Of a DNA stretch of 64,000 nucleotides, positions 3,490-62,711 are shown piece by piece. Source of the DNA: Allacma fusca (lineage: Eukaryota > Arthropoda > Collembola > Symphypleona > Sminthuridae); the NCBI GenBank assembly GCA_947179485.1, contig OX359246.1:496001-560000 (forward strand), written 5' to 3'. The first letter of the stretch is position 1, and the number at the start of each line of letters is the position of its first letter. The notes beneath the pieces are model-generated. The model had not been told where the DNA came from, ran no database searches, and saw only the letters and a program-made list of their open reading frames with translations. A program made the translations under genes and the position numbers.

Positions 3490-3497
3490 ACTCCACC

Positions 3498-4682
3498 TAG
3501 GGTATGTCGATTGAAAATGTCCTGCAGTATTTGGCCGCCCAGCTGAAAATGCCCAAAATGCCTGCCCACATGCCCAAAAACTGGGCATGTGGGCAGCTTT
3601 TGAAAATGCCCTGATTTTGGGCATTTTGGGCAGGGCAAGTTGGGCATTTTCATAGCACCAAAATTGGATTACTAGCATATATTCTGAATATCCATCCAAA
3701 TGCATGGAAGCGCAGCTAAGGAAAAGTTACAAATATGGATGTCTGGTTATTCGCTTGTTCGTTTATATATCAAAATGGCAAAAACAGCCAAATCAATTAA
3801 ATTTCATTGACATGAGGTGATATCATTTATCACTGCTATGAAAAAAAATTTCTATGTAAACAAAAATATGCAATAAATTTGCGTATGCGTCACTGACAGG
3901 CGGGCAGAAATACTATTTTCTTTTGAAGTACGAACTCCTAACGTAAAAATCTGATGGTAAGGGATCAGTGAAAATTTTAATGGGTGATGTAGCTTAATTT
4001 TATACTCATTTTATTCTACATCACTATTGTCTGCAGTTTGCAACGATTAGCTAAAAATTGCTCGAGTAGAAACCAATGTACATCCTCCATACGGGTCCCC
4101 CAAATATTGTTGTTTGTAGTTTTATGGTGTATACAAAAATTACCGTATGGATTCAAATTTTAACCGAAAAGACATTTCTGATAACAGTAATATACATACA
4201 TGCATAGGGGTATGTGAATATTACTAGGATGGTGGAAGTTCATTTTACATCATCTGCAGTTTGGAAAAATAGTTCCTAGAATATTTTAATTTATAGCCGT
4301 ATCGTGTACTGTACAGGTGTTTCATAAATTGTAATGTTCAATATGACCGATGGTATACAAACGTATTTCATCACCGGTTGAATTAACTTCGTCAAAATAA
4401 TGACAAACAGAATAAAATTTTCAAGATAATTTCGAACGCTTTTTCTCCAAAATTACAAAGAAATTTTCAAATTCACTGTCAAATTGTATAGATTGTTCTA
4501 TAATATTCCACGATTCTGCCCAAAATGCCCAATTTGTCCTCGATGAAAATGCCCAAAATGCCCTTGCCCAATATGCCCTATTATGCCGCCCTCGCCCTGA
4601 AATGAAAATGCCCAAAATGCCCTGGCATTTTGGGCGGGCGAGTTGCCCAAAATGCCGGGCATTTTCAAATCGACATACCCTA
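3498..4682. mobile_element. Non-autonomous hAT-type DNA transposon (hAT-A), complete with 8-bp TSD
   Basis: The left end starts TAGGGTATGTCGATTGAAAA (3498). The right end, read on the other strand, starts TAGGGTATGTCGATTTGAAA, which is the same 23-bp terminus with a single-base indel. The flanks are perfect 8-bp direct repeats, ACTCCACC at 3490-3497 and again at 4683-4690. An 8-bp target duplication with TAGGG termini is the signature of the hAT superfamily. Both subterminal regions (about 3540-3655 and 4516-4665) are packed with copies of GCCCAAAATGCCC in both orientations, as expected for hAT transposase-binding repeats. At 1185 bp there is no transposase frame, so it must be mobilised in trans. 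Confidence 0.88.
3538..3655. repeat. Left subterminal GCCCAAAATGCCC repeat cluster of hAT-A
   Basis: Several direct and inverted copies of the GCCCAAAATGCCC type lie within about 115 bp, including the inverted pair CTGCCCACATGCCCA and TGGGCATGTGGGCAG around 3568-3597. Strong secondary structure is expected in single strands. The matching right cluster is at about 4516-4665. I infer a role as transposase-binding sites by analogy with hAT elements. Confidence 0.7.
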
Positions 4683-8864: not shown

Positions 8865-11800
8865 TTAATTGCCTTCCTCTCTTTCAATGATTGACGCTAA
8901 TTCTATTGGGCGTTGTCGACGTATTCTTGGTCGGATTGTGATTACTCTTTTTGATTGGCGAATTTTCCAAATACATATTGCAATAATAATAGCTAGTATA
9001 TTTAATATAGTTATTCCCGTTGTAGTAGTCCAGAAAAATGGATGAGCATATTCGACTCTCGGATATAGTGACTGTAGAATATATGTTGATTCGTTAGTCT
9101 GGGATACCGATGTAATTAAGCTGGTCCAATTGATTGTGGGTTGTAATACCCAGTTAATCTGAGCAGAAAAAATTGGCTCAGGTTTTACTATGTGGGAGAT
9201 TTCAGTCAAATGGCCAATATACTCAATATTATTAATTTTAAAGGTTGCGGTTATTGGGAGAGTGAAGACTTCGTCAGGGCATGTGTCTGTTTTATGTCCT
9301 ATGGTTAAGTTTGAACCTGGGCAATATATATAGTACTTGCCATGGAATGGTTTTAGTTGCACAAATTGCCGAAAGTCAAATGGGTAGCTGGGTCTGCATT
9401 CTTTTACTGTGTAATATACCTTTCCTTGTATTGCTTCCTTGGGAAGACAGTGATCGGATTTTGGAAGAACTAATTTTGAATTTTTGGAGTATTCTAAGTC
9501 GGTGTCGAGTACACAGTTGGTTCCTAGTTGGATGATGGCATTTACTGGTCCGGTGTATACTAGTTTACACGTATCATTTTCTGTCTTCATCATGAAGTTG
9601 AACGGATCTGCTTCCACCAATATATTATCTTTTGATACATATGGTATTGAGAAATCCATGTATAGGATATCTTTATTTTCAGATAATGAGCATTGTTGGG
9701 ATTTTCCTTCAGGACAGTAATTAGGTGACTGGCAAATTTTGGAGTAATTTAGGAAATCAAAGAAGTTTGGATTAATCTTTCCGTTTTCCCAGTCCCGATG
9801 TGTTTCTTTAATTATGTCTCTTCCAATCATCAATCGATTGGTTATAAATGAGATAGCGTAGTTAGTACTTATCAGTTTATTTTTTATTTCGTCAAAGTCT
9901 TTTTGATGTATTGACAAGCTCTCCATAGCAGTTTTAAAATCTTGTTGGAGTCGTTTAATTGCTTCCTTGTTTTGGAGGTAATTTTGTTCCAGTGTCCGTA
10001 TTTCGTTGCGGTGATTCGAGATCATTTGATCATACGCACCTGGACTTGGATATTGATTTGATGTGTACGCTGTATGTCCAAAGACTCCTAGACCCATACA
10101 TGCTACAATGATTGCAGAAATTCCAACTACTGCAAGATTTAAAGCTCGTTCTACAACACGTTTCTCTCTTATAATATTTTTGTGTTTATATTTGGTAGGG
10201 CACATTAGTTCTAGTTGTCGGATAAATATATCGTTATACATTTGGGTACATTGTTCTTTCGCAAATGGGAGTAGTCCCGAGTCGATTTTGTCCTGTGTTA
10301 GTATTTCGCATGGACTTATAAATTTTATTGCCAGAGCTACCTGAGTATGTCCAGTTGTGATTTGATTTTCACTTTTTCGCCAGAGTATCTGAATTTCTTC
10401 TTGTTGAACAGTTTTTACATTTATGGGGATTAATATGATTAGTAGAAATAAAACCCATATCGAGCTTAGTTGCTGGTTGTTTATTGGAGTTATTGAAAAC
10501 CATATTGAGCTTAGTTGTTGATTGTTTGCTGGAGGTATTAGAGTTGTTTTATTTGCGACTTTAGAAAGTACCAAGGTTGGGAGGGATATAATGGTAATGA
10601 TGGCTGTCCATAGAGATAAGTAAGCTGCGGATGACCATGTTTTCTTCGGTTTTATCTCTTCAGTTGATTTTATTCCGAATCCTTCCCTTGATTCCAGAAA
10701 TTTTGTTCGGGATAGTGGTTTTGTTAATCCATCAGCTAGTTGATCATGTGTAGGTACATATTCTACTTGAATTTCGTTATTTGTCACTAAGTCTCGGGTA
10801 AAATGATAACGTACATCTATATGCTTCGTACGGTTATGCATTTCTGGGTTCTTGGCAAGTCTAATCGTGCTTTGGTTATCAACGTAAATTGGTATCGGTG
10901 AAGTCCTGGGATGACCTAGTTCACCCAAGAATCTTCGGAGCCATGTGGATTCCCTAGCTGCTGAAGCTAGAGCTATGTATTCTGCTTCTGTTGATGACAC
11001 AGCCACGACAGGCTGCTTTTGACTGGACCAACTTATAGCTCCATTTCCCAATAAGAATACATACCCGCTGGTTGATTTTCTTTGAAGTTTATCTCCAGCG
11101 TAATCCGAGTCAGAATATCCAATAAGTTCCGAATTTGAGTTTTGTTCATACTTTATACTGAGGTTCATGGTTCCTTTCAAGTACCTCAAGATATATTTGG
11201 CTGCTATCCAGTGGCTGTTGTCGAAGGCATGTAGAAATTGCGATAACTTAGAGACTGCATAAGAGATGTCAGGGCGAGTACATTTAGCTAAAAATAGGAG
11301 TGAGCCTATGAGTTGTCTGTATGGCAATGCTGTATTTGGTTGTAGACTTGGGACCAGATCCAAATTTGGTTGCATTGGTACGTTTGCTATTTTACAGTCT
11401 GTCATGTTGTAGTTTTCCAATAGGGTTTTAATATATGTAGTTTGGGTAATTTTTATAATTCCAGTTCTTGTTTCTTGTAAGATTTCTAGTCCAACGTATG
11501 TACTTACATCTCCAGTTTTAATTTCAAATAATCGTTGTATTTCATTAATAACTTCAGAGATGGTTTCGTTATTTTCTGAGATAATAAGTCCGTCATCTAC
11601 ATATAATGCTAGATACACGATTTTATTTTTGATTGTTCCAACGTAAACGCTGTGGTCACATGATGTTCTTTGTAAATTGAAATCGCTCAGGAATTTGTTG
11701 AATTTTTGATTCCAACATCTTGGAGATTGTTTGAGTCCGTACAAACTTTTGTTAAGTTTACAAACTATATTCTGATCTCCATTAGAGAATCCCTTGGGTT

Positions 11801-35639: not shown

Positions 35640-37174
35640 AACCGCATATTATATTCGGGACGGGCACAAAAAAAATGTCACCAGTATATTCAGGACAGGG
35701 ACAAAAAAATTGTCCCCATTGGGTGGGGACAGAAAAAACTGTCCCCGTTATATTCGGGAAAGAGACAGAAAAATTTGTTCCCATTACATTCGGGACAGGG
35801 ACGGAAAAAATTTGCCCCACTTTATTCAGTTCGAGGTCAGAAAGATGAAAGATGTCCCCAAAATATTCGGGACGGGACGGGGACAGAAAAACTGGCCCCA
35901 TTATAATCGGGGCGGGGACAGAAAAAATTCTGTACATTATATTCGGGGCGGGGACAGAAAAATTGTCCCGAATATTTTCGGGCGGGGACAGAAAAATTTG
36001 TTCCGATTATATTCGGGACGGGGACAAAATAACTGTCCCCACTATATTCGGGATGGGCACAAACAAAATTTGATCAACTTTATTCAGGACGAGGTCAGCA
36101 AAAATGTCCCCAATATATTCGGGACGGGACGGGGACAGAAAAACTGGCCCCATTATATTCGGGATGGGACGGAGACAATAAAACTGCACATTATATTCGG
36201 GATAGGGACACAAAAAATTGACCCCATTATATTCAGGACGGGACTGAGACAATATAACTGAAAATTATTTTCGGGACGGGACCGGGACAGAAAAAATTGC
36301 CACCATTAGATTCGAGACGGGGACAGAAAAATTGTGCACATTATTTTCGGGATGGGGACAGAAAAGATTGTCCCCATTATAATCGGGGCGGGTACAGAAA
36401 AAATTGTCCCCAATATTTTCGGGCGGGGACAGAAAAATTTGTTCCGATTATATCCGGGACGGGGAAGAAATAATTGTCCCTAATATTTTGAGGCGGCGAC
36501 CAAAATTGCCCCCGTTATATTCGGAAAGGGACGGGGACAATAAAACCGTGCATATTATATTCGAGGCGGGGACGCAAAAAATTTATACCATTATATTCAA
36601 GACGGGACTGGGACAATATAACTGAACATTATTTTCGGGACGGGACAGGGACAGAAAAATTGTGCACATTATTTTCGGGATGGGGACAGAACAAATTGTC
36701 CCCATTTTATTCGGCACGGGGACAGAAAAAATTGTCCCATTATATTAATGTGGGGACTGAAAAAATTGTCCCCACTTTATTCAGGACGGGATCAGAAAAA
36801 TTGTCCCCGTTATATACCGGACGGGACAGGGACAAAAAATTGAGCTAATTATATTTGGGGCAGGGAAAGAAAAAATTGTCCATAATATTTTCGAGACGAG
36901 GACCAAAATTGCCCCCGTTATATTCGCGAAGGGACGGGGACAGAAAAATTGGCCCCATTATATTCGGGACGGGACGGGGATAACAAAACCGTTCATATTA
37001 TATTCGGGACGGGGACACAAAAAGTTGACCCCATTATATTCGTAACGGGACTGAGACAATATAACTGAACATTATTTTCGGGACAGGGACACAAAAAGTT
37101 GACCCCATTATATTCAGGACGGGACTGAGTCAATATAACTGAACATTATTTTCGGGACGGGACTGAGTCAATAT
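35640..37174 (+). repeat. Minisatellite of hairpin-forming units, interrupted by the giant retroelement
   Basis: The unit is roughly TTATATTCGGGACGGGGACA followed by GAAAAAATTGTCCCCA, about 35-40 bp, repeated some forty times with substitutions and length variants. Within most units GGGACA and TGTCCC pair around an A-rich loop, so the array is a series of potential hairpins. The array stops in mid-unit (GACTGAGTCAATAT at 37174, where other units continue AACTGAACATT), marking the insertion point of the retroelement that follows. Confidence 0.92.
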
Positions 37175-37188
37175 TGTTACGGATATAT

Positions 37189-37196
37189 TATAAATA
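37189..37196 (+). promoter_or_regulatory. TATA box in the giant element LTR
   Basis: TATAAATA lies only 14 bases inside the LTR. If it is the promoter, U3 is extremely short and transcription would begin near 37220. The controlling sequence might then lie elsewhere, for example in the leader. Confidence 0.4.
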
Positions 37197-37576
37197 GAGT
37201 AGAATAAGCATAATCTAAGTCAGCAAATAGTTTAGAAGGTCGTAAGCAGAAGCTACGTGAGACCAAACGCTGACCTAACATAATCATAAGTAAAGGAAAG
37301 GAAATGATTCAGATTATTTAATAAACAATAAACTAAGAATAGGATAAGATTAGATTTAGATTAAGACACGTAGACTAAGTACAAGTTCTAATCACGACTT
37401 CAAGCAAGCAACATCAGAGGAGCCGCACCTAGAGTCCATTCCCTCCGGGATGGATCTCAACAGGTAGCAAGCGGGGTGACATGAAATCGGAGATTTCATG
37501 AAGAAGAGATTCAGACTTCAAATTCTATTTGTGTTAAATGTTAATTGTTCAGTGTAAATTGTATCAGTTTAGGAAC

Positions 37577-37595
37577 AATAAATCGGATCAATAAA
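37577..37595 (+). terminator. Polyadenylation signals in the giant element LTR
   Basis: Two AATAAA hexamers, at 37577-37582 and 37590-37595. The copy in the 3' LTR would direct 3' end formation. Confidence 0.5.
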
Positions 37596-37769
37596 TTATA
37601 AAAACGAACTACACACAGAATTCATTAGTTCCATTTATTCATGCGTTTCCAACAACATCGGATTCCAGGAATTCAGGGGATGGAACACCCGAACCTAGGC
37701 TACATTATTATTACCCACACACCATCCATACCCGGGTAATACCGTACATAACATGATGTTTCTGCCAGG

Positions 37770-37824: not shown

Positions 37825-38430
37825 GACCCTGTGACAAAAGACCGAACTTTGTAGCAAGTAAGGTCGTCAGTCAAACAAAATTCATGAGATGGAAGTATGG
37901 GGTCCGAAACGGAGGTGATGTTTCATTTCTCTCCAGGGCCACCCGAAACTTCTCGTGAAAGGCAGTCATAACATGCAACAATGTTACCTCAAGAAAGAAA
38001 ATTTGGCCATTATCATCACGCGCGGATTCAAATAACAGTTCAGAAGTCCTAGTGCGGCACTAGAAAAAGAACTATTTTGTGGCCAGAAATATTATTTTAA
38101 GTGACCAGTGAAATTGGGACTCTTTCCATCCGGAAAATTAGGGGAAGAGGACGTCCAATAAGGTAATACAATTTTTCTTTAAGGTTCATGAATTTCATGT
38201 TTAGGAGCATATTAATTTTGTCATGTAGTTACGACGCGTAGCTAATATTCAGGAGTAATTAACCAGAGTTTAGATACAAATCATATGTGTAAATTAGAAA
38301 AACTGCGCATATATGTATATGTATTTTGTGGTTTTCAGAGTACATAGTAGGTGTATGTGCATTAAAAATTTTTCACCAAAATTAGCTTCTTCCAGTAAAA
38401 TAAGTCTTCTTCTATCTTTTTAGACGCCTT

Positions 38431-40174
38431 AAGTGCCGTTGTGAGCGGAGGCATAAACAGTGTTCGTATTGTAAAGGGAACTATTCCGGCTGAAGGGCCG
38501 TTTCTGTGCGCAGTATAATAGTAATCTTTCTCTTCGTAAGTTTTAAGTTCTTAATTTCAAAAAGGCCGTTTTGAGCGTTGAAATTCTTTTAACTCTTCAA
38601 ATTACTTTCCAAAGTTTTGGGAAACCCCAGGCTAGGGGATAGGAACCCAAAACACAATTAAAAGCTTTCAATTAATTAGGACATTTTTTATTAATACCAG
38701 ACTCTCAAAATTAACTTTCCAAGCTAAGTTTAAAGCAAAATACGATCTATCTTTTCAGTAAATAACTCAAAAATAATCTTTCACTCTCTTCTTTCTCTAC
38801 ATCTTTCTCCTTCTAGTATAAGTACATTTGAAGGGCCGTTACTGAGCGCAAATGCCTTTAAAGTCTTTATCTCCAAATTACGTAATTAAGAGCCCCATGG
38901 CAAGGTGGCAAAACCCAATTAAAACCCTTTCGCTGAAAATTACTTTCTTTACCTGATGTGTAGGTTTACACGGGTAACAATAGGACCTATCATAAACTTT
39001 TCACAAACTTCTTTTCTTCTTCCATCTTTCCATTTCTACCAGAAATGCCGTTTTGTGCGCTGGGTAATTAGGACATAATTTGTCATGGTTTTGGCAAATA
39101 TTAGGATTTCAAAATCAATCCGGAAGGCCGAATGTGAGCACGGAGCATATCAGAGTTCAGTTAGTCATTTTGCAAATCAAAACCTATATAGCTCAGTTAG
39201 AGAGCATAGGTAGATCAGACCATCTAAAGACTATAGTATGTAAGGTGAGCAAAATTACTCGGGACGGCCGAATATGAGCACCGAGGTGATTAGGACAGTT
39301 TAATTAAGGTTTGAACAAAATTTAGTCCAAAGGGCCGAGGTACATTGAGCGTGGACACATTGGCATAGTATATAAGCATACATATAAGAAAATTCTCATC
39401 TACGTAGTTTTAGGGATTCAAGGGCCGAAATGTGAGCGGAATCATTGTTGTGTATAAGTTTTAGTATACGTAGAATCCGAGAGGCTAGGAAGATTATGAG
39501 GGACCTTATGGTTCAGTAGGGTTCGAGTCATTCCAAGCACGGAGGTGATCGGACGGAGTGCCGACAAAAGTACCGATAAGCCTGTGACCTACTAGAGGTA
39601 ATCGGAGAGGCTATGATTGACGCACCGATATAGGTATATGTTTGTAATGTGCCCGAGCTAGCGGATAGGTAACAGCAATGACTATTACTAGTAAGGAGGT
39701 CCATGGTTTAGTGGATAGGATAACAGGGGACATTCCAAAGCACGGATGTTCACTTTAAAATCTATGTATGCGGTTTCCAGCTATGGCCATACATAGGGAC
39801 TTTCATATTTATTACTTCTTCCATAGATGACTCATGGTTTTGAGTGCATCATAAGTTTAGCCATTCTCGAAGGATTTTGCTAGAGTAGAGAGAATTGGCA
39901 TAAGAAACCACAGGCTCATGGTTTTTGAGAGTTGGTTATAGGGATAGGAATTCAGTAAATTCTGGTGCTTTCAGTTTTTGCTGTCTACGTCAGATACAAG
40001 CCTTGCTGATGGTAGGATCGGTTCAAGGAAGTTCTTAGGTACGAATTAGGACGCGAAACATATCCTTTGGGGCAGAAGGGTAATTAGTAGCGAGGAATAC
40101 AGTCTTTATTAATTCTGGGAATCATTACAGGAGTATTTAGGGAATTTAGGCAACACCGGCCCGAATGTGAGGAG
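38431..40174 (+). repeat. About ten dispersed copies of a GGCCG...GAGC motif in the leader
   Basis: The consensus is roughly GGCCGNNNTGTGAGCG. Copies: TGCCGTTGTGAGCGG (38434), GGGCCGTTTCTGTGCGC (38495), AGGCCGTTTTGAGCG (38563), GGGCCGTTACTGAGCGC (38833), TGCCGTTTTGTGCGC (39046), AGGCCGAATGTGAGCACGG (39125), CGGCCGAATATGAGCACCG (39265), GGGCCGAGGTACATTGAGCG (39332), GGGCCGAAATGTGAGCGG (39422), GGCCCGAATGTGAGGAG (40158). The sequence between copies is unrelated, so this is a maintained short motif and not a tandem duplication. Confidence 0.7.
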
Positions 40175-40851: not shown

Positions 40852-43800
40852 ATGGAACCCGAAAAGAACCAACATCCATCAAGAAGGGAACCACCACCTG
40901 CACCTTCAATACCATCTCGAAGGACTACGCGATCGGCAGGCCCAGTGCCACAGAACGAAACAGGCTTGGAGGAAATCCTCGCCCGCAGGAAAGAAGAGAG
41001 AAAAGCAGCAAAAGCCAAAGCTAATACAGCAACGGCAGGTGTAGACCTCTCTTCAACATCTTCAGCTTCGACATCTACAGTCATGGAAGAATCCGGCAGT
41101 ACAACCCTGGCATTATCTGCACAAAGTCCATCGGGCTCGCAGGCCATGGGGCACGGAGATAATCCTGACAATAATGATGAAAGTATGGACGTGTTCTTGG
41201 ACACGGTGTCAACACCTGCAACAGGTACGGCAACCAGTCCGAGACGAACACCAACAGTATCGACAGCACAAACACCAAAGTTTTCAAGAACAAAGGTGGT
41301 GCAAGGACAAAATCTCCATAGACTAGCTATGCAACGAGAATTACGCGACCTCGAGGTAACCAACCTGGAGGGCCAACAGGTCCAACAAGACCAGGAGGTT
41401 GAGGCCACAGGCGAATTCATGCTAAATGCTAGAGGAGACATGGTTTTTGTCAGTCACGACGCTGACCCCACGATCAAGGAAATCCTGTCGCAGTTCAATC
41501 AACCTGAGGAAAGACCAACTAGTAGCGCTGCCACGTCATCATTTGAAATCATCACGGATCCTGGAAGCAATCATACAAGCGTAGAGGAGGGCGAGCAAGG
41601 ATTCGCAACTCCGGAAAGTGAGATGGAAGACGTGACCAATGAATCAGCCAACAATGCGGTTGTCAGCAACCTGACAAACCCAGTTGGCAACGGAGACATT
41701 CCTCAAGACACGAGCATACAATCCCAACAGGATGTACAAAGTCAAGGAATGTGCAGCAAAACTACTGGACAAACAGAACAACAGGTTAATCAGCAAAGCT
41801 CAACGGAATTGGATGATGTGGAGGATTCCAATAGACCAATTGCTATAGCAACAAGTACACCAGAGATTATCCAGCAAGGGAATCTCAGTACACACTCATC
41901 ATTTAGGGACAATTTAGCAATAACTCAATCGGACGAGTCAACCGAACAGAGCGAACAAGGTGACTCACCAACAGGAGTGCCACGTACTAATAACAGTATA
42001 GGGAGTGATCGTGACCAGGTCACTACTCAATTAAATCAGCAGTTATCAAACTTAAGCATTAGTGACCACCGTAAGGCTTCACAGTCAAATACTACAGTTT
42101 CCCAACAACCAGACATACAACAACTTGTACGAGACAGGTTTCTATCAAGACCATCTCCAGGATTTTCCAATAGAGGAGACGTAGGCTTTCAAAGGACACT
42201 CAGCCGGGTGTCTGAGTCTACAGAACAGGAAGGCCCGGTCGAGGATCAGTTACCACCGATCAGAGAAGGGCAAGATAACATCCAAAGAGTGGAAGAAAAT
42301 TTCGTACAATTAGTGACAGGTACAGGTGTGATAGTACCAGCAGGTTCGTTTCAACAATTAGTGACCACCGCAGGCTTCCAACGGAACTCAGTGGAAAATT
42401 TTCTGGTAGTTCGAGGATTGGAAGGACAACTGATAGAGGTGTATCACAGGTTAGCTCAAAATCTTTATACAGGTACAGTCCAGTGGACACATTTTTTCCT
42501 TAGATTAGCTGAAGTCACCCACAGACGGGACAATAACAGAGATCCAAATAGGGAAGAAAGGGAAGTGTTACGTACACGTGCCTTCGAGTACGGTCGGAAC
42601 GTCAGGGACAACATTTTCATCCCCACAGACGTCATCCGAAACCTTTTAGAGCACCGGGTATTGTCGTTGAGAAGTCACCAGGCACACCAGGATAGCCAGA
42701 TTTTCTTCAACGATACACCTAGGTACACAACCGTGATACAATCTGGACGACTTAGCGAAAATCTAGAATTTGGTCAACCACGACAAGAAAGACGAGTCAG
42801 CGACGAGAGTAGGCCAGGCCCAGAACAAGATTCAAATAACAACGGGACCACCCAACAAAGTGTAATCGACTCCAGTGCTGACGACATCATTAGCAGGTAC
42901 CTTAGGTACGACCAAAGAAACCCACCAGTAACACGGAATCCGGTTACGGGTTTATTAGAACCAGCATCTAGATCTACGCTAAGGACCATCTCAGGCGAAC
43001 CTACAGTACAACCCGTTACGTCACGAAGGATTTCACCGGAAAGCCTGAATACCAGCTCAAGTTCAATCAACAAGGCTATAGCCCAGGCAATAGCCTCAGC
43101 GACACTTCAAGCAGGTTTAACAACCCCTCGAAATCGGAAGTTGAGTAACTCCGATCGTGACCATCTCAGACCAAGTAACCAGGTGACGGACAGTAACCAG
43201 GTAGATTACTCATCACCTAGGTCACAACTTTTCCAGAAATCGGTGAGAAGACACTACAGGGTAGATAGTGCTGAGGAGAACAGCAACTTAAACCCCAGGA
43301 CCAGTCCACAAGGGATTGCGACACGTGAGAGACCAAGCAACAGCCGTTGCGAGACAGCCGCTCAGAAGGGTAGCCCAAGAGCACCCACTACATCACCTAC
43401 AGTCCAGACAGGTAATCAGACGCCAACAGGGAGCTCTACGGCACAACCGAGAGTGACCCCGAGGTCCAGTAATTCCTGTCGCTCAACACCCGCAACAGGT
43501 GAAAGAGGGCAATCAAGCCGACACAGCAACTCTCACGAAATAACACAGCAAATTAACCCAGTACACATATCACCAACCAGTCAGAATAGACAGGTTTCAA
43601 CGGAAAATACGCCAAGGAACCGACCAACTCAACCTAACTTGCAATTTAGACCACAACCTACCCAAGACGATTTAGAGACACCAACCGAGGAGGTCGAGAC
43701 CACCCAAATTGGTAGTACATCACAGGCTAACGTTAAGAGGGATTTAACATCAACAAAATTGTACGTCAACACAGATTCCACCCAGGCAAACAATAACGAC

Positions 43801-46800
43801 CAACTGGTACACCGAGTTTACCAGTCACCGGGAGGCCGAATCTACGTACACCCACCCGTGCACGCGTTGCGAGCACCGCCACTTGACGTTAGTGAGACAG
43901 CTTTAAGAACATTGGTACAAGTAGGGAGACAAATAAGGGAACAGAATCCGTCATTAACTATCGCAAATACCATCAGAAATTCTGACACAGGTACTTACTA
44001 TCAGGCATTTAGACCCCAAGACAGGTTTACCGTCTATCAATCACCGAGAGGCTCGTTATATAACAGCCTACCGATAGGACGCACAGGTATACACCGCCAC
44101 AGTTTACGAGGTCGAGACATCCTGCAACGAGCAACCAACAACGATAGGACCATCATAGAAGGTGGAGAGCTTGTAACAGTACCACAACCACCACCTTCAG
44201 AACAAACATCTAGAAGCAACGAGTCGTACGTCCAAGGTGACACCTTAAGGTCACGGACAGCAACACCTGCATCTACGACACGTGCAGCAACGACTTTTGC
44301 AGTACCAGCAAGACCAACCGGAAGGTTCATAACCAGGTCAGCAAAACGACCAACGACACCGACAGCTCCAGCTGTCCCCGTCAGACCAAATTCAGCAGTA
44401 GCAGGACCATCTCGAGCAACAACAACTCCAACCACAAGTCAAGGTAAAGTCAGTTGGCTTGACGACTTACAATACGGAGTTAACATTTGGACAGGACCAA
44501 GTGGCAGAGTATACACCAGCGAGAACGAAGCAACCGAAGACGAGTTAGTACCAAGCAGAGTAACAGTAAGACAATACTCTAAGATCGCGAGACAACAAGA
44601 CAGATTCAGAAACCAGGGGGTAGAGAACGAAGCAACTTGGACAGGTCAAGTGAGACGCCTGATCTACTATAACAGAAGGGACGGAATCATACAACGAAGG
44701 TTTAGACCAGCTAGAGATTCAAATTTTGAAGCGTTTGCAGCCACAAGAGCTGAACACGAAGAAATTGTTCTGAGTGAACACCCGATATTTACCTTCTGGA
44801 ATATAATTACCCGAAGATCTTTAGACCCAGGACAGATCTCCAGCTACATCGCACCTAATTTCAGACTTTATCATCGACACATCAGTTTACCAAACGGCGT
44901 TCGCAGACAAAGGGTACCACCAGGCTTCTTGGAAGAAATTGAGAACGAACACGACCACCAAGAGGCATTGAATAGATTAATTCACGACCCTAACGTAGAA
45001 ATCTTGAGTGACACGTCCAGCGAGGAAGAAGAAGAGCAGGTAGTACAGAGAGACACTCCAAGACGTGAGAGTGGTCAGCATAACAGTACACAGTCTAGTG
45101 AAGAGACAGACCACATTTTTATTGGAGTTGACGAAGAGGACTTCATTATTCCAGAAGTACCAGGTCAATTTACCATAAGAATCTCTATAGACGACGCCTA
45201 CGACGCAGCGTTCAGAGCAATTGAAAGAGACGAAGAGATACAAGAGGAAGTCCGATTTGTGGATAATACCGGAGAAACCCACTTCTTCCCAAGAATCCGA
45301 CTCCGAGACCTTAGTCCGGAAACTCAAGTTGTACTCACTCAAGTCAGAAAGAGACGTAAACCCTTACGAGCACGCCGTCAAATTGGAAATAACCAACCCA
45401 GACCACCAGGCCCAGGACCAAGTGGATCAGGGAGAGGAAACCAGCCGAGAGGGGCTAATAACAACAATTCCCACAACCAGCGACCATCTCAATCAAGGTC
45501 AAACCCAGGTCGAAGAGGCTCAAGAGGAGGTAGACACATCGGAGGCAGACGGAGAGCAAGGAGCGACCCCGGAAGTTCCGGAGGAAGTAGCTCATCATCC
45601 AGCTCCAGTAGTAGCAACTCAAGTAACCCTCACGACTTTGAGGCCTTCGACAACTGGAGGAATAGACAGATTGTGAACAGAAATAATTTCTTTAACCAGG
45701 TCAACGTTAACATCATCAACCCATACGTACCACTCAATCGCAATCAGGGAATACGTATTGAGGAAGTTGCAGACCAAGAACAAGTACGAATAATTCCAAG
45801 GAGACATCTGGACGACGACATGACCGCCCTCATGTTTCCCAAAGTAGAATTCAAACCGGGTGTAGATGACCCAGAGACAGCTTTCGCAACAGCCGAACTC
45901 CAAACCAACAGGTTCGGAGGAGATACCATCATAACTAGGATGCAGTACGTACAGATCATCTTTGACCCACCCGTCAGGGATTGGATCAGAAATTGGATTG
46001 CCGAACGAAGATTACATGAGGAACTACCCTACGACACCATTAACTGGGACGAATTCAGGGAGGAATTTCTAATAAGGTACAGTATCACCGACCAAATGAT
46101 ACGTACACTAATGGAAAAGCGAAAGATGAATACGGATGAAGATCCATGTGCATACATAGATGCGAAATTAGCACTAATCAATAGAGTCGACAGATTTATG
46201 CCCGAACTGGAGAAAATCAGACTCTTACGCGCAGGTTTAACATCCGAATACATAGTTTTCTGCCGAGGATGGACAGCAGGGACTGTAGCAGATTTCATAG
46301 AGGGAATCAAGCAGTATGATGAAGACCGAAAGACGGACGGCGCGGAATCCATTGAGACAAGATTTGCCAAAGTCCAAGAAATGTTGGAGAAATTGACCTC
46401 CGGAATGAAACCAGTTCCAGCAGAAACAACTGTAGTGAAAATAGCTGCAGTGAGAGAACAACAGGATTATCGGAGACCCGAAAATAGACCCAATGACCAA
46501 CGAGGACGAAGTCCAGGTCAGGGAAACTTCAATAACTCACGAAATTCCAGCCCAGGTTACGGTAACAATAACAACTACCCGGACAGGGGACGTAACAACC
46601 AAGGGTATGATGACCGAAGAAATTATGGGAACCGAGGTAGATCTCCAACACCTGAGAGATTCTACAATAATCAAGACAGGAGTAGGCCTCAGTACAGAAA
46701 TGATGGCAACAGCTCCAACAACCAAGGTTACCCGCAGCGGAACCAAAATTTCGGACCCAGACAAAGTCCGAACCGACAATACTACAACAACAACCCTAAC

Positions 46801-50400: not shown

Positions 50401-53400
50401 ATTGGTCTCCTACCCCAAAGTCAACGGCAGCAACAACGTCACAAAGTCCAGCCAACGGGAAGGTTGACATTGATTCACCAAAATCCCAAGGGCAGATGAC
50501 ACGAAGTACAATGGAATTCACAACAATGGATGGGGCAGGTGAGGCTGAAACTAAAACTGTACATCTACCACCAGCCATAATTGTAGACTCCGATATGGAA
50601 GTCCATGATCAAACATTGAAGAATCAGGAGACAGCGGATCTGGTGAGCCAGGCAGCTGAGACTACACAAAAGAAGTCCTCAACTAACCCGCCCACCCATC
50701 CCGCCAGTCCTACAGAGGCCAAGAAATTGGTACTCACGGATGAAGATAGGAACGTCCAAAAGGAATGCGACCGACCGACACTGAGACAGGAAAAGTTCAG
50801 TGTGGAAAATCACATTCCATCCGGACATGATCCCACAGATGAAGAGAAATGGTTTGCATTTGAAGAAATTTGGAGGAATCCAACGCCAGCAAAAGGTGAT
50901 GAATGGAAGCTCAAACAGGAAGTTATTTCGCAATTGAAGACATACACTGCACAATCTGCCAGGAAGATTAATCAAGTTCCTGATGCAGAAAGTCCAGGAT
51001 ATGCTAACAATCCGGATCTTGATACCCCACAGCGGATCAAGGCGATGAAGATTTCCAAAGATGTGGATGAATGGATGAGAAATATCCAACGAAGATCTGC
51101 AGCATGCGAGTCGGAGGAAAACAAAAACCCTCCGCCGTCGCATACGTACATATCCACAGAGAATCCAGATAATGAAGATAATTTCTCTCTACTGGCGACC
51201 ACAGTAGAAGAGCTGAGGAAAAATATCCGGGAAGGTGAAATCAAATTCACCGATGGAAGATCATGGAAGATTCAACCTCTGAAAGGGCAGGGTGTTGTGA
51301 CAAGTAAAAAGACGTCACATTCACTATGTCTTTCACAGGATGAAGACCCAAAGGATAAAGACGCTCAGAAAACTGAGGACATGTCATTAAATAGAGCAAT
51401 AAAATTTGTTCCAGGAGCTCACGCACTACAGGGGTGCGAAGGGAGCAAAGATACTTTTTCCACACACAAGCCTGTGTGTAGGATACTTGAAGATGAAGAG
51501 CAAGTTACTATGTTAGACGAACATAACATGCAGGAGATGCAAAGGGACGATCCAGACTGTTTATTCATCATGGACAAAATAAAGATGCGGCATACGTTAA
51601 ATTGGAAGGACAAAGAAAAGTATAGCCGATATGACATTGATGAAGAAGGGATTCTTACTATAGTACATAAAGATGGACGTAAGCTATACGTACCCCGAGT
51701 ACTTAGAAATTTCCTACTATCAAAAGCCCATGATGGGATTCTATGCGGAGGACATTTAGGATTCCAGAAAACTCTTCATAGACTCAACAAAAATTATTTT
51801 TGGAGAAAAATGAACGTCTCAGTAGCAAAATATGTCATGTCATGTGAAAGTTGCCAAGCAGCCAAATCCATGAGAATGAAGCCAGCAGGACTACTTCATC
51901 CAATCAGGATAGAAAATGTAGGAGATGCATTATGTATTGATCTCATTGGACCCATGCAAATTAGCATAAAAGGGAATAAGTACATTATAATCGCACAGGA
52001 TTATGTTTCAAAGTTCGTGATCGCAGAAGCAATTCCAGATAAAACTGCTGACAGGATAGCAGAATTTTTGCTTCACAAAGTAGTTTTAAAATACGGACTG
52101 TTCAAAAACTTGCTGAGTGACGGAGGATCCGAATTCAGAGCGGAAATCACTCAAGCATTACTTCGTAGATTAGGCATGAACCATTCTACATCTACAGCAC
52201 TAAGACATAATAGTGTTGGACAAATAGAAAGAATGGTCCAGACTATAAGCACTATGCTGAGTCATTATACTCAAAAAGAGCAGGCATTATGGTGCAGTTG
52301 TTTACCGTTTCTAATAAATGCTTACAATTGCAGTCACCATGACGTGACCAAAGAAACTCCTTATTTTATGATGTTTAGGCGACAACCTATATATGATTTT
52401 AACTTACAACTGTGTTTAAGCAGCGTCGACACTAATTTTATGAGTGCTGAGGAAGCCACTACTAGAATAGAAAAGGCTATTGCTAAGATAAGGGAACGTC
52501 AGGACTACAGTAAGGATTGGTATGATAGGAAAAGAAGGTTCGTTAAATTCAACATCGGAGACACAGTGCGAGTCTTTACACCGACCAGGATAGTTGGAAA
52601 GAGCGAACGCTTTCTTCATCCTTACAAAGGACCCTTTGTAGTCATAGAAGTTTTAGCCAAAGACAATTATATCATTCAAGACCTTAGGAATTCTAAAAAG
52701 AGACAGAAAGTCCATGTGGAGAGGCTTAAGAAGTGCCTACAGCGAGAACACATTGAGGACGAGTATAGTTACGATTTAGATTCCGATATAGTGGAATTGG
52801 TGACAAAACGAAACTGGAACAAGTGTGAAAAAGTTATAGTGAGTCAGCCACGGTCAATTCTTAAGAGTTCGACCACTTCAGATAACAGTTCAACTACGAG
52901 CAAGAAGGTGACTTTTAAAGCTCAACCTGCTCAAACCAAAGAAATAACTAGAGAATTTTCATCCGAAAATTACTCAGACAGTTCAAGTGAACAAACCCAG
53001 CCAGTACAACAGAGAGGAGAATTTTGTGACAAAAATTACTCACACTCTCAAATTACCCCAAGTGAAGGAGGGAGATCAAACCAGGAACCACGTCAACACA
53101 AAGATAACACTCAAGGAGGAAAACGTACTACTAAGCAGTCAAGTACACAAGTAAGAGAATTTTCGTCAGAAAATTATTCAAATAATCGGGAATTTTTAGA
53201 TAAAAATTACCCATATTTCACTCGCTCGAAAGTAAATGAACACCCTAGAGGAAATCAGGGACGAGATAAGGGGATTGAAACAACAGAGGAATTTAGTCCA
53301 AATAAAAATCTGGAAGTACGCAGCTCAGGAAGAGTACATCAAACAGAGAATCGCAGACTTAGAACTGCTAATTCAGGAGACAAAACCTCAAACGTCAAGT

Positions 53401-54629
53401 TTCTGCCCACAAGTGGAGAAATCACAAGACGAGGTTCAACCAGAATAACTGATGACACATACAAAGAGAGAATTAATCCTAATCATCCAGGGATTACAAG
53501 CCCAACTAATCAAGGCAAAGGAGAACGAAATTCGTCTCAAACAAAGAATTTTACACCAGATTTCGGAACAACAGGAAATACTGAGCAAATTGAAACAACT
53601 CGAGGGAGACCACAAAGCAACCCTCCAGGAAACCCAGAAAGCCAAAGAAGATATTTCGGATTTAATAAACCAGCTGAAAATAGCTCAGGTGTAATATCCG
53701 AAGGTGAGGAAGAAACTCAACCACTTATTGACGAGAGTGACTTGAAAACACTTAAAGAATTAAGTAGTTCAGGGATAAGTCCAACAGAGTTTGATGTGGA
53801 CGACAGCAGTGAGTGTAGAGAGACAAATTCTTACAATTCGGGATCAGAACCGAGAATTAATCAACCGCCTACGACAGAGAGAGGGAGACCTGGACAAATT
53901 GAAACAGGAAATCAAGGACCTTCAGAAGCGACTTCACGAGTTGAGGTGCCTTGGCCCTCAGTAGCGACGGACATCTCAACCCAATTGCTTCACTCAGATG
54001 AGCAAAAGGCCTTGGAAGAGCCCCCCTTTGTGGAACTCAACACCAAGCCCACCCAGCGAAGCTCAGAGACAGACACTGCAAAGCCTACAAGCGCAAGGCA
54101 GTCGGATCAGAGAAGCAATAGCACGAGTGGAGAGAGAAATAGAACAAACCGAGAGAGCCAAGAATATTCTGAAAAATCAGATACGAGCAGCAAACAGTCT
54201 AGCCAACAATTCAAACAACCCCCGGAACGAGAAGTCCTTGTAGAAAATTCTACAGAAGAGGACGAAGAGTTCCAGGAAGTCCCAGTGGAAGAAAACGGAC
54301 AAGACTCTGTAGATACTCATACAGAAGTCATTAACATACCTGTAGAATTTTCTACAGAAGAGGACAGGTCATTGGATGTCATCACGAAAGACAGTCCCAG
54401 AAGGCCTGAGAGAATTAGAACAAATACGTCAAAGCACCGAGAGACATTCAGCGACCCTCAGAACCCGACGAGTACAAATCCAACAGGAACTTCAACAAGT
54501 TCAGGAGGAGATTCGGGAGTTAAAGAAGCAGGCGAAACACCTCAAGAAGGAAGCGCGGAAGAAACCGGAGAAAGTAGACGATACCCAACTCGTACCCGAA
54601 AAAGGACGAGAAGATTTGGATCAGTCTGA
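47391..54629 (+). CDS. Giant element Pol: protease, RT, RNase H, integrase with very long tail
   Basis: The start given is the first codon after the predicted frameshift; the first ATG is 47439, and residues are numbered from there. Protease has DSGAT with D51. RT begins near 345 and carries YLDD at 492-495. RNase H has HTDAS with D651. The integrase has an H2C2 finger near 1431-1465 (CESC) and a core with D1501, D1561 and E1597 (DD35E), followed by an SH3-like C-terminal module (about 1703-1770). The domain order is Ty3/gypsy. Two features are unusual: about 665 low-complexity residues separate RNase H from the integrase, and about 620 disordered residues follow it. The tail has four EF..xNY motifs and acidic blocks, and overlaps coiled-coil segments in another frame. 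The TGA stop (54627-54629) is followed in the same frame by ORF3. No catalytic residue is missing. Confidence 0.92.
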   Translation, partial: LTEGDAPPVTEDIQERMNAIIATRVESQSKDDEELEIIDLNPCRLSNGNKSTLQVQICSMMIPALLDSGATRSCIQRNLVPRCAEIKEVPSALRVAVANAELVKPICLTKFTMMIEGEKLLFKGLVMETLEPRMIIGEDLLSRYGITLDYKNNEIRSDRFQTVPMTRDTHLYVGEKKADIEFVRSIFSFHEVKGPKNMMCRTRKAVTIPAYGHMKVPIQIPKRIKKDFYLQPSEKLYTSKRLLIAAGVVPNEEPFAYVFNPAPCPQTMYGRTAIGHAEENFDLIKIKRNQLRDAHKRLTQEQLDCFDVNEELDEEGRAKYRALLTRYPECFAFNKGDLKEPAWIDPIRIHTGNNPPVQAKPFPCSPMERQKVREEVQKMLDADIIKEVNGPYSSPLFLIKKKDGTFRSVVDYRALNKTITDQVYPLARIDDILMQFGKSAMFDTLDMESGFFQLLIHEDDQIITSFITQDGLYAFKRLPMGVKIAPSAFQRAADQMLGSLKFRGAMVYLDDVISYGIHLLDKLASLEELMLRASNKNFKFKPKKCKFGYFEVIVLGFKVSREGTSPDPAKVDAIRHVPIPKSETEARRFFGICSFYRKYIKDFAKIASPISQSWIGSKGKSEGQKRIRCFQWSADATIAFNILKTKLMTQPVLAHFNPELDCILHTDASISGLGCCILQDDGGEHPIAYASRTLIQSEKNYSVTELELAAVVYAVRKFRQYLYLRKFLIRSDHLALCYLRLQKDPNHRISKFVNKLQEFDFQVTYKKGALHLDADFLSRAPLPYTKEDLEDTEDRVIEFEPDPVKEHKIALEERKQIPQGNTIMPPPACAASLTTRESYKGKYWTDDESQSSDEEEAIIPQRQNPWSGRLKGQPRRKVKSQVEILAPQPNLEETDWENHTMSVKSRVNEVTHSYSALKEWKLSVDDIITIHKFREDDPQEDENTWKYTNEYIYEKNLKLIQEIELHNATINELDMKEFLSPDKVQNENEDFDRNTIIDIGMGTDWSPTPKSTAATTSQSPANGKVDIDSPKSQGQMTRSTMEFTTMDGAGEAETKTVHLPPAIIVDSDMEVHDQTLKNQETADLVSQAAETTQKKSSTNPPTHPASPTEAKKLVLTDEDRNVQKECDRPTLRQEKFSVENHIPSGHDPTDEEKWFAFEEIWRNPTPAKGDEWKLKQEVISQLKTYTAQSARKINQVPDAESPGYANNPDLDTPQRIKAMKISKDVDEWMRNIQRRSAACESEENKNPPPSHTYISTENPDNEDNFSLLATTVEELRKNIREGEIKFTDGRSWKIQPLKGQGVVTSKKTSHSLCLSQDEDPKDKDAQKTEDMSLNRAIKFVPGAHALQGCEGSKDTFSTHKPVCRILEDEEQVTMLDEHNMQEMQRDDPDCLFIMDKIKMRHTLNWKDKEKYSRYDIDEEGILTIVHKDGRKLYVPRVLRNFLLSKAHDGILCGGHLGFQKTLHRLNKNYFWRKMNVSVAKYVMSCESCQAAKSMRMKPAGLLHPIRIENVGDALCIDLIGPMQISIKGNKYIIIAQDYVSKFVIAEAIPDKTADRIAEFLLHKVVLKYGLFKNLLSDGGSEFRAEITQALLRRLGMNHSTSTALRHNSVGQIERMVQTISTMLSHYTQKEQALWCSCLPFLINAYNCSHHDVTKETPYFMMFRRQPIYDFNLQLCLSSVDTNFMSAEEATTRIEKAIAKIRERQDYSKDWYDRKRRFVKFNIGDTVRVFTPTRIVGKSERFLHPYKGPFVVIEVLAKDNYIIQDLRNSKKRQKVHVERLKKCLQREHIEDEYSYDLDSDIVELVTKRNWNKCEKVIVSQPRSILKSSTTSDNSSTTSKKVTFKAQPAQTKEITREFSSENYSDSSSEQTQPVQQRGEFCDKNYSHSQITPSEGGRSNQEPRQHKDNTQGGKRTTKQSSTQVREFSSENYSNNREFLDKNYPYFTRSKVNEHPRGNQGRDKGIETTEEFSPNKNLEVRSSGRVHQTENRRLRTANSGDKTSNVKFLPTSGEITRRGSTRITDDTYKERINPNHPGITSPTNQGKGERNSSQTKNFTPDFGTTGNTEQIETTRGRPQSNPPGNPESQRRYFGFNKPAENSSGVISEGEEETQPLIDESDLKTLKELSSSGISPTEFDVDDSSECRETNSYNSGSEPRINQPPTTERGRPGQIETGNQGPSEATSRVEVPWPSVATDISTQLLHSDEQKALEEPPFVELNTKPTQRSSETDTAKPTSARQSDQRSNSTSGERNRTNRESQEYSEKSDTSSKQSSQQFKQPPEREVLVENSTEEDEEFQEVPVEENGQDSVDTHTEVINIPVEFSTEEDRSLDVITKDSPRRPERIRTNTSKHRETFSDPQNPTSTNPTGTSTSSGGDSGVKEAGETPQEGSAEETGESRRYPTRTRKRTRRFGSV
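52950..53226 (+). repeat. Four EF(S/C/L)xxNY motifs in the Pol tail
   Basis: REFSSENYS (52950), GEFCDKNYS (53016), REFSSENYS (53154) and REFLDKNYP (53187) alternate in two flavours, SSEN and (C/L)DKN. The conserved EF and NY in an otherwise disordered tail look like a short linear binding motif kept in multiple copies. Confidence 0.7.
53236..53448 (+). CDS. Alternate-frame coiled-coil segment 1, overlapping Pol tail
   Basis: 70 codons in the +1 frame relative to Pol. Its ATG directly follows a TAA of the same frame (TAAATG at 53233-53238). The start LEEIRDEIRGLKQQRNLVQI has hydrophobic residues at 3-4 spacing (L, I, I, L, then V, I). Whether it is translated is unknown. Confidence 0.35.
   Translation: MNTLEEIRDEIRGLKQQRNLVQIKIWKYAAQEEYIKQRIADLELLIQETKPQTSSFCPQVEKSQDEVQPE
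53452..53694 (+). CDS. Alternate-frame coiled-coil segment 2
   Basis: 80 codons, the same +1 frame. The ATG lies three bases after the stop of segment 1 (TAA CTG ATG). About 40 residues keep one heptad register (I, L, L, A, E, L, I, Q, Q, I, L, L), for example in KQRILHQISEQQEILSKLKQ. The composition (Q, E, K, L, I) differs sharply from the disordered Pol-frame text on the same DNA. Confidence 0.4.
   Translation: MTHTKRELILIIQGLQAQLIKAKENEIRLKQRILHQISEQQEILSKLKQLEGDHKATLQETQKAKEDISDLINQLKIAQV
53794..53964 (+). CDS. Alternate-frame coiled-coil segment 3
   Basis: 56 codons from ATG to TAG. LDKLKQEIKDLQKRLHEL gives leucine or isoleucine at strict 3-4 intervals. Same frame as segments 1, 2, 4 and 5. 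Two stop codons separate it from segment 2. Confidence 0.38.
   Translation: MWTTAVSVERQILTIRDQNRELINRLRQREGDLDKLKQEIKDLQKRLHELRCLGPQ
53998..54243 (+). CDS. Alternate-frame coiled-coil segment 4
   Basis: 81 codons. SRIREAIARVEREIEQTERA continues into KNILKNQIRAANSL with hydrophobic or small residues at 3-4 spacing for about 30 residues. The ends are disordered (P/S-rich before, N-rich after). Confidence 0.38.
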   Translation: MSKRPWKSPPLWNSTPSPPSEAQRQTLQSLQAQGSRIREAIARVEREIEQTERAKNILKNQIRAANSLANNSNNPRNEKSL

Positions 54630-54639
54630 AAGCGAATGA
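54376..54639 (+). CDS. Alternate-frame coiled-coil segment 5, ending in an ATGA overlap
   Basis: 87 codons. VQIQQELQQVQEEIRELKKQ and the following AKHLKKEA form a clear heptad register, then a charged tail. Its TGA (54637-54639) overlaps the ATG of ORF3 (54636-54638) as ATGA, an arrangement that in other systems supports termination-coupled reinitiation. Confidence 0.4.
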   Translation: MSSRKTVPEGLRELEQIRQSTERHSATLRTRRVQIQQELQQVQEEIRELKKQAKHLKKEARKKPEKVDDTQLVPEKGREDLDQSESE

Positions 54640-54962
54640 ACACAACCAGATATTTAACAACAATACCAAACTGTGTTAGTTTTGGTCAAAGCGAGATTGA
54701 TCTCAAGATTGGAGACCGTATAAATCTCATTAGTTACCTCATACGACAAGGTCGAAGGAGAATCCGATACGTAGGTACGTACACAATCATTAAATCAGAT
54801 TACTGCAAAGTATTTTATCTTCAACCAGATGTCAGAGAACAGAGGATCACGTGCATCCGGGTCTCGAACCAACGAGACTCCACGCCAAGACGCCCTACCC
54901 GCCGTCGACAGGGACGACGACGATCGACCACGTTATTGGACCCAATACGTGAGTCAAACTGA
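54636..54962 (+). CDS. ORF3: small basic protein, possibly with an SH3-like fold
   Basis: 108 codons, in the same frame as Pol and beginning two codons after its TGA stop, so leaky termination would append it to Pol. Residues 23-70 (LKIGDRINLISY, then YVGTYTIIKSDYCKVFYLQ) recall the layout of the SH3-like C-terminal module of gypsy integrases (IGDTVRVF ... GPFVVIEV ... YIIQDL in this Pol). That relation is inference. The last 30 residues are arginine-rich because they overlap the start of ORF4. It is not otherwise recognised. Confidence 0.55.
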   Translation: MNTTRYLTTIPNCVSFGQSEIDLKIGDRINLISYLIRQGRRRIRYVGTYTIIKSDYCKVFYLQPDVREQRITCIRVSNQRDSTPRRPTRRRQGRRRSTTLLDPIRESN

Positions 54963-61964: not shown

Positions 61965-62711
61965 ATGGAATACAAGTGGTATATTCTTTTGAGCCTTACA
62001 ATAATTCTAATTGCAATGGACGTTTCCGAAACCAGGCCGATAGCACAACCAAGTCCAGAACCATGGCAAGGACCACTGATGGCAGCCCTAGGAACTCAAG
62101 TCGGAAAATGGTTCGCAAATTACATGGTACCAGCCATAACCGTCGGAAGCGGAGCTATCACAGCATCAGTGTTATCACAAAAGGACCCAATAGTACACAT
62201 ACTACACCACAAAGATGACGGGAAACTAGCCGTAGTGCAGTATGACCCGAACGACCCAAACGTAGAAGCCCAGAGAATCATGGAGAGGAATCAACAAATG
62301 GCTCTACTACAACCCCAACAACAACTTATACAACCCCAATTCATACAAAACCAACAGCCTACGATGCTGAAGGATAGCAGACCACCATGGATGGAGCAAT
62401 TCAACGAAATTGATTGGAAATCCAATGAGGTTCCAACATCAGACACGGATTATACCGTAGTCATTATTAGTTCATTCGGTTGTATTACCACAGTAGTGAT
62501 ATTTATATTCACAGTAATACTGTACCGAATTCGAATGAAGAAAAGAAAAACAGATCAACAAAAACCGAATGAGAGAGAATTAGACAATGTTGCAGACACG
62601 CAGGCATTAGTCCAAAATTCTATAGAGCAGCTAGTCGGATGCAGAATTGTGAGGCCCAATACACAACAACAAGCCAGCCGACACACAACCAGAGCAACCG
62701 TACAACTATAA
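61965..62711 (+). CDS. ORF5: type I membrane protein (about 249 codons), Env-like accessory
   Basis: The start chosen is the ATG at 61965 (AAGGATGG, good context). The frame is open 17 codons further upstream without an ATG. Residues about 3-20 (YKWYILLSLTIILIAMD) are a signal peptide. A second hydrophobic stretch near 55-72 (MVPAITVGSGAITASVL) could be a fusion-peptide-like or membrane-associated helix. A Q/P-rich middle follows. A strong transmembrane helix lies at about 163-188, then a basic stop-transfer (RIRMKKRKT) and a 55-residue tail. The size and topology suit a small envelope or accessory glycoprotein, yet there is no furin site and few cysteines. No family recognised. Confidence 0.65.
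   Translation: MEYKWYILLSLTIILIAMDVSETRPIAQPSPEPWQGPLMAALGTQVGKWFANYMVPAITVGSGAITASVLSQKDPIVHILHHKDDGKLAVVQYDPNDPNVEAQRIMERNQQMALLQPQQQLIQPQFIQNQQPTMLKDSRPPWMEQFNEIDWKSNEVPTSDTDYTVVIISSFGCITTVVIFIFTVILYRIRMKKRKTDQQKPNERELDNVADTQALVQNSIEQLVGCRIVRPNTQQQASRHTTRATVQL

Follow-up and report, generated by a model that had tools for sequence, protein, structure and literature searches.

Five probable coiled-coil genes overlapping the 3' part of pol, in its +1 frame, in a giant Ty3/gypsy-type retrotransposon of Allacma fusca

In complex retroviruses, the interval between pol and env holds small accessory genes, and certain of these overlap pol. The locus described here lies in a 64,000-nt stretch of the collembolan Allacma fusca (hereafter the window; G000:C8:496001-560000 of a 392.7-Mb assembly), which contains the 5' long terminal repeat (LTR), gag and pol of a giant Ty3/gypsy-type retrotransposon. 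Five open reading frames (ORFs), cc1 to cc5, follow one another in the +1 frame beneath the tail of its pol ORF; by description only, they are set apart from the retroviral genes in forming a clustered helical set almost wholly inside pol. In Rice tungro bacilliform virus (RTBV) and the badnaviruses (Caulimoviridae), leaky scanning carries ribosomes through ORFs I and II, and scanning across 900 nt without internal AUGs is described for plant pararetroviruses (PMC5902531). In these viruses a single RNA bears the small ORFs and the long one that follows. The present locus resembles them in that a long ORF is preceded by small ones with suboptimal starts and no AUGs in their interior; it differs in that the small ORFs, five or six in series, sit within pol itself in the +1 frame and belong to an animal Ty3/gypsy-type element known from sequence alone.

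Among animal LTR retrotransposons, Cer1 of Caenorhabditis elegans encodes CERV, an extra lineage-specific protein with a helical domain, which is predicted to multimerise and is needed for genomic RNA export. It offers a precedent for an additional protein with predicted multimerisation; unlike here, CERV is one 517-aa protein from a five-exon spliced mRNA and not a chain of small ORFs (PMC10309623). Giant size is shared with Ogre of plants and with the Burro gypsy elements of planarians, which exceed 30 kb with an internal region of up to 25 kb; unlike in Burro, the LTRs here measure only 578 bp around an internal part of ~27.6 kb, and no mention of overlapping coiled-coil genes was found in the accessible parts of the Burro report (PMC6431247). 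The LTR elements of bdelloid rotifers also have extra ORFs, of the ORF3 types, some with a coiled-coil domain; unlike here, these follow pol, and the word 'overlap' is absent from the portion of the source that was available (PMC5408684). Gene overlap, leaky scanning, accessory genes and giant size are therefore each known, and their combination is new as far as we searched: no report of an LTR retrotransposon with coiled-coil genes that overlap pol in a chain was found in the literature covered, in the parts accessible and with subscription papers mostly outside it. If the reading given below is true, such a nested chain is a retroelement arrangement that we did not meet in that literature.

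We interpret cc1 to cc5 as five separate, functional nested genes for distinct, mainly helical coiled-coil proteins, which would be read from a shorter, scanned mRNA and serve as accessory factors; the probability of this joint reading is put at roughly 0.8. They are regarded as living overlapping genes, and not as a by-product, because the +1 frame is under constraint, the starts and stops are kept, Pol stays open, and the ORFs match one to one in family B, a diverged group within this genome represented by two copies (L039 and L040), with 90-91% protein identity in the integrase stretch. Gene finders would drop these ORFs as out-of-frame transposon noise; the variation among copies shows constrained proteins. 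An earlier interpretation made from the letters of the window (the sequence-only reading) had noted five segments in a single frame, and all were found at the positions it gave, in the +1 frame to Pol, each running from ATG to stop (Table 1). The ATGs that it had seen directly after stops were located as TAAATG at 53233 and TAACTGATG at 53446, and the Pol frame, described as stop-free over the segments, is open up to the TGA at 54627-54629. The final ATGA join is likewise present, at 54636, although it leads to a 108-aa ORF and not, as had been proposed, to ORF3, which begins at 54829.

Table 1. Features of the retrotransposon and of its nested ORFs, in window coordinates.
Feature	Position	Strand	Remarks
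5' LTR, 578 bp	37176..37753	+	Partner at G000:C8:561308-561885, beyond the window; ends TGTTA...TAACA
gag ORF, 2188 aa	40852..47418	+	Zinc knuckle at C end
pol ORF, 2396 aa	47439..54629	+	Protease, reverse transcriptase, RNase H, integrase, then a long low-complexity-looking tail
ATG-poor region	52740..54828	+	Six ATGs over the three forward frames of the window copy; they open cc1-cc5 and the 108-aa ORF, with no others present
cc1, 70 aa	53236..53448	+	+1 frame to Pol, ATG to stop
cc2, 80 aa	53452..53694	+	+1 frame to Pol, ATG to stop
cc3, 56 aa	53794..53964	+	+1 frame to Pol, ATG to stop
cc4, 81 aa	53998..54243	+	+1 frame to Pol, ATG to stop; N-terminal MSKRxWxSPPxWN motif, also in family B
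cc5, 87 aa	54376..54639	+	+1 frame to Pol, ATG to stop; extends 10 bases beyond the Pol stop
108-aa ORF	54636..54962	+	In frame with Pol, beyond its stop; ATGA join with cc5; overlaps ORF3 start
ORF3, 2189 aa	54829..61398	+	env position, same frame as cc ORFs; strong acceptor-like site ending at its ATG
ORF4	61966..62711	+	From first ATG; the ORF listing starts at TTG 61914

Coiled coils were predicted in all six frames of the whole window with a COILS-type scan (P>0.5), which called seven stretches: four fall within cc2-cc5, and the rest belong to long ORFs, namely ORF3, pol and the ORF of a copia-type element. Synonymous codons were then permuted with the Pol protein fixed, and none of 3000 permutations reached the 205 coil residues observed (mean 37, maximum 161) or attained the observed top coil score; redraws from the codon usage of the element gave a mean of 4.6 coil residues and likewise failed to reach 205 (0/3000). 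In the converse test, with the +1 peptides fixed, the Pol frame was expected to contain 19.7 stops on average, compared with the single, terminal one seen, and no permutation had as few (0/3000). As both fixed-frame tests fail to reproduce what is observed, neither frame explains the other. cc2, the only one of the five to be modelled, was predicted by AlphaFold2 as a single helix over residues 5-79 (75 residues), with a mean predicted local distance difference test score (pLDDT) of 96. Scoring by codon preference separated the frames poorly. Weak Pfam matches of cc4 and cc5 (GPS2_interact, THOC7, CENP-Q and others) fell below the cut-off and were taken as generic coiled-coil noise.

Selection was assessed on 38 further copies of the window element's own family (family A), namely ranks 2-39 of 107 scored places (from 2278 candidates) ordered by integrase protein score. 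Five copies were left out from the start for indels, which comprise 21-bp deletions 5' of cc1 in L047 and L074, 75-bp deletions 5' of cc1 in L067 and L068, a further 8-bp deletion 3' of cc4 in L068, and a 2-bp deletion inside cc3 in L058. The remaining 33 copies plus the window make a 34-row set, from which L059 and L062, carrying compensating small indels, were removed to leave 32 strictly gapless rows; the figures below refer to these 32 rows unless stated, and the 34-row set gives the same picture. Pol positions 1/2/3 correspond to +1-frame positions 3/1/2. Polymorphic columns at Pol positions 1/2/3 number 102/44/41 over the cc segments, compared with 15/22/28 in the gaps between them (chi-square p 4e-5 against the segments) and 25/28/51 in pol directly upstream (p 3e-7); the counts are 11/10/31 in the 108-aa ORF before ORF3 and 45/10/9 at the start of ORF3. 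The frame under constraint therefore changes from one ORF to the next interval. For individual ORFs, the excess relative to Pol position 3 is significant in cc1 (p 0.0003), cc2 (p 0.043) and cc3 (p 0.0002).

The ratios of nonsynonymous to synonymous polymorphism (pN/pS) followed the same pattern, with 0.04 in the +1 frame versus 4.75 in Pol for cc1, 0.21 versus 1.05 for cc2, 0.10 versus 3.81 for cc3, 0.14 versus 1.60 for cc4, and 0.37 versus 0.67 for cc5, where the Pol C-terminus is partly constrained too. The two gaps long enough to be measured showed the reverse, with pN/pS of 0.19 and 0.32 in Pol and of 1.03 and 1.26 in the +1 frame. All ATGs and stops of cc1-cc5 were retained in 32/32 rows, without internal stops; a single internal stop, in cc2, occurs in the 34-row set (1/34) and is gone from the strict rows. 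The Pol tail has no stop in any of the 32 rows. Variants that create a Pol stop were seen twice, against 8.3 expected (7/2000 as low), and variants that create a +1-frame stop were never seen, against 6.5 expected (1/2000). Both frames are thus open and each is under its own constraint, as dual coding demands, and over cc1-cc4 the constraint on Pol is to stay open, not to keep residue identity. The +1 frame appears to be protected more strongly than the Pol tail itself, in support of the overlapping genes that the sequence-only reading had offered as one possibility.

Family B has cc1-cc5 in the same order and an additional, sixth ORF inserted after cc2 and before cc3; the whole set occupies the +1 frame of a Pol tail that is open. 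The five pair one to one between the families, with 18-36 identities in 56-87 aligned residues, and shuffles that keep the hydrophobic pattern gave z values of 5.7, 8.0, 7.4, 12.3 and 10.1 for cc1-cc5. Pol over the same DNA is less similar between the families (z 0.3-10.8, compared with 6.9-17.2 in the +1 frame). The ATGA junction of cc5 with the next ORF and the basic RRYPTRTR-type end of Pol are common to both, and differences between L039 and L040 within the cc region fall 15/6/6 at Pol positions 1/2/3. The sixth coiled-coil ORF encodes 100 aa (L040, 3240-3542), and the window copy has a 99-nt gap in its place. A third lineage, known from one decayed copy (L083), contains six coil-ORF remnants in one frame, with seven called stretches, two of them in cc4. 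Tandem duplication was considered as the origin of the cc ORFs and rejected, most cross-pairs giving z <2.5 (exceptions: A3-B4 4.6, B3-B5 4.4 and A2-A3 2.9).

The distribution of ATGs and their contexts bears on how these ORFs would be read. Dinucleotide shuffles predicted 16.7 ATGs over 53000-54828, and only 1/300 was as low as seen. Among 424 variants, four create a new ATG, compared with 15.4 expected (1/2000) when the type of base change, the consequence in either frame and the sub-region are controlled for; in the 34-row set six were seen against 17.5 expected (1/3000), and eight control trinucleotides were on expectation. A pyrimidine occupies position -3 at 7/7 starts in the window and at 6/8 in family B, compared with a share of 0.39 for other ATGs in pol and ORF3. 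Weak upstream start contexts of the RTBV type are present; for AUG-free stretches of that type the evidence is divided, the dinucleotide shuffle and the variant test speaking for them and the Pol-fixed shuffles (next paragraph) falling short of significance. The avoidance of new ATGs, together with the weak contexts, suggests an RNA read by scanning ribosomes.

Several results weigh against this interpretation. With Pol fixed, the scarcity of ATGs in its tail was not significant, either in one count (4 versus 5.9 expected, 336/2000) or in a second (5 versus 6.3, 344/1000); because such shuffles expect only ~6, the Pol residues already leave little room for ATGs. Extra ATGs occur in some copies, at 52771 in 12/32 rows and at 53731 in 8/32, and three are present over 2400-4607 of family B. 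It would also ask much of ribosomes to leak past six successive starts. Of the five coiled-coil segments claimed by the sequence-only reading, cc2-cc5 passed the six-frame scan, whereas the window's cc1 has a low coil score (1.21, not passing; its family B counterpart passes with 1.72). Considered individually, cc4 (p 0.14) and cc5 (p 0.30) lack a significant wobble excess relative to Pol position 3. Ranking by integrase score favours intact copies, which makes the ORFs look more uniformly open than they may be, and because the copies were chosen by an integrase query, ascertainment accounts for part of the low variation next to the integrase. Finally, an acceptor-like site stands 18 nt 5' of cc5 in both families, and as this site and the one at the ORF3 start are common to both, the element probably uses splicing.

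That heptads are spelt one base over by chance, from the A-rich codons of the Pol tail, is given practically no credence: Pol-fixed permutations still average 37 coil residues and 13/3000 attain four separate coil runs, which points to some helix tendency in Pol and counts for such a by-product, yet the full 205 residues were never attained, variation tracks the wobble of the +1 frame, and the ORFs recur one to one in family B. An ancestral coil protein overprinted by Pol had also been suggested. In the form of a disused relic beneath an extended Pol, this is a remote prospect; the contrast between a helical +1 frame and a disordered Pol would fit an older helix frame now broken by stops, but a dead relic is incompatible with the current purifying selection on the +1 frame and with the conserved ATGs and stops, and the truly decayed L083 looks different, with 11 Pol-frame stops, the cc1 ATG lost, and early stops in cc2 and cc4. 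The part of the suggestion that survives is that the coiled-coil frame may predate the Pol frame. Production of the segments as Pol fusions through +1 frameshifting would agree with their frame and with a Pol that must stay open; it is nevertheless very unlikely, as five separate shift sites would be required and the conserved ATGs would be idle.

Splicing was weighed in two forms. The sequence-only reading had named spliced exons as an option, and the segments might be exons joined into one long coiled-coil protein, perhaps together with ORF3; they share the frame of ORF3, and acceptor-like sites stand just 5' of cc4, cc5 and ORF3 in the window. This is considered unlikely, because individual ATGs and stops would be needless and yet all are kept in the 32 gapless rows, the order and boundaries recur in family B, the window has poorer sites ahead of cc1, cc2 and cc3, and the best 5% in family B includes the sites of cc5 and ORF3 alone. 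The main rival is that the genes are real, several or all of them being expressed through their own spliced or trans-spliced mRNAs and not by scanning along one RNA, with ORF3 as the best candidate; we regard it as possible, though clearly the less favoured account. In the window, acceptor-like sites are good before cc4, cc5, ORF3 and gag (best 2.4% or better), and those of cc4 and ORF3 run right up to the respective ATG, the latter in the best 0.8%. The site of family B, 4 nt 5' of the ORF3 ATG, is in the best 0.1%, and the weight of this rival was raised because of the family B scores, to which the shared site before cc5 (best 4.3% there) adds. Cer1, moreover, produces a spliced accessory mRNA (PMC10309623). 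Against it, the avoidance of new ATGs across the region and the weak -3 contexts are not predicted, and the sites before cc1-cc4 in family B are not good, the remaining starts ranking at 10%-29%. Splice acceptors were thus rejected as an account of all the starts. A search for SL1 RNA gave no match, its controls being equally silent.

Under the preferred reading of five nested genes served by scanning, Pol would be translated from full-length RNA through the cc DNA, its tail having to stay open with a sequence that would hardly matter over cc1-cc4. The +1 genes would be read from a shorter mRNA, whose 5' end would probably fall between 52714 and the cc1 start at 53236, since ATGs stand at 52522 and 52714. 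Ribosomes would scan the ATG-poor stretch, start at successive ATGs in weak contexts, and leak past or reinitiate, to yield cc1-cc5 and the 108-aa product, and ORF3 would be served by a spliced mRNA of its own. The presence of five different, co-conserved, mainly helical proteins suggests that they oligomerise, possibly with each other, as accessory factors in the handling of particles or genomic RNA. More tentatively, and with the odds against it, the five or six nested genes might build a hetero-oligomeric complex, be scanned serially from a pol-internal RNA, and share that scanning with an AUG-free stretch of gag (see below) kept for the same purpose. The locus provides a natural example of extreme overlap between genes, measurable across many copies, and animal retroelements gain in it a candidate for serial initiation; its five helical proteins may help to explain the packaging or movement of a 28.7-kb genome.

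The element measures ~28.7 kb end to end, and its copy in the window is young, as both LTRs are identical (578/578 bases, 100%). Its gene order is gag, pol, ORF3 and ORF4. Flanking LTRs, the Pfam order of protease, reverse transcriptase (RT), RNase H and integrase on the 2396-aa Pol product, and the gag zinc knuckle (PF00098 at residues 2153-2169, 20.9 bits against a cut-off of 20.8) identify it as a giant, recently active LTR retrotransposon of the Ty3/gypsy type; the integrase core match lies 0.4 bits below its cut-off, and the integrase zinc-binding domain is well above its own. The top-scoring proteins in a search of 5.8 billion proteins share ~35-43% identity with the RT/RNase H part, and a search for viral contigs with an RT stretch found none. 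Rfam and tRNA scans of the 64-kb window gave no match.

The 108-aa ORF is under purifying selection (pN/pS 0.14 over 54640-54828, before the ORF3 overlap) and shares 53/93 identical residues with its family B counterpart. No homologue was found among 358 scored candidates from the protein search, one PDB match (E 0.35) being taken as chance, and its model has a pLDDT of 54, without a confident fold. ORF3 stands where an infectious, env-bearing member would encode a fusion glycoprotein, and it has no Pfam match and no homologue among 8000 scored candidates from that search; it probably has its own spliced mRNA, to judge from the acceptor-like site that both families have at its start. ORF4 shows by eye two hydrophobic stretches, one at the N terminus and the other near 62440-62530, and possibly encodes a membrane protein.

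Over ~4 kb of gag (41819-45819), there is no ATG in any forward frame, compared with 15.5 (standard deviation 2.9) expected with Gag fixed (0/1000 permutations). The first ATG thereafter, at 45820, is in the gag frame, and the stretch that it opens is conserved in family B. Elsewhere, two copies have one ATG each in this stretch and one family-B copy has ~10, none of them in the gag frame. In the Pol tail, ENYS/KNYS/KNYP motifs recur over 52959-53227, the last one directly 5' of cc1, with similar motifs in family B; they could be candidate protease cleavage sites that release the tail. A GGCCG...GAGC-like motif recurs several times by eye in the leader (38430-40170), possibly as a packaging or structural signal, and diverged tandem repeats of ~36 bases, GGGACGGGGACA-like, occupy 36014-37174 and end immediately 5' of the 5' LTR.

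Elsewhere in the window, the copia-type element lies on the minus strand (8865-14651), with Gag-Pol within one ORF and ~550 additional residues whose basic site, hydrophobic stretch and predicted coiled coil resemble by eye those of class I fusion glycoproteins. COX1 copies with an in-frame TGA were observed on several chromosome-sized contigs (C5, C8 and C12) and presumably represent mitochondrial insertions.

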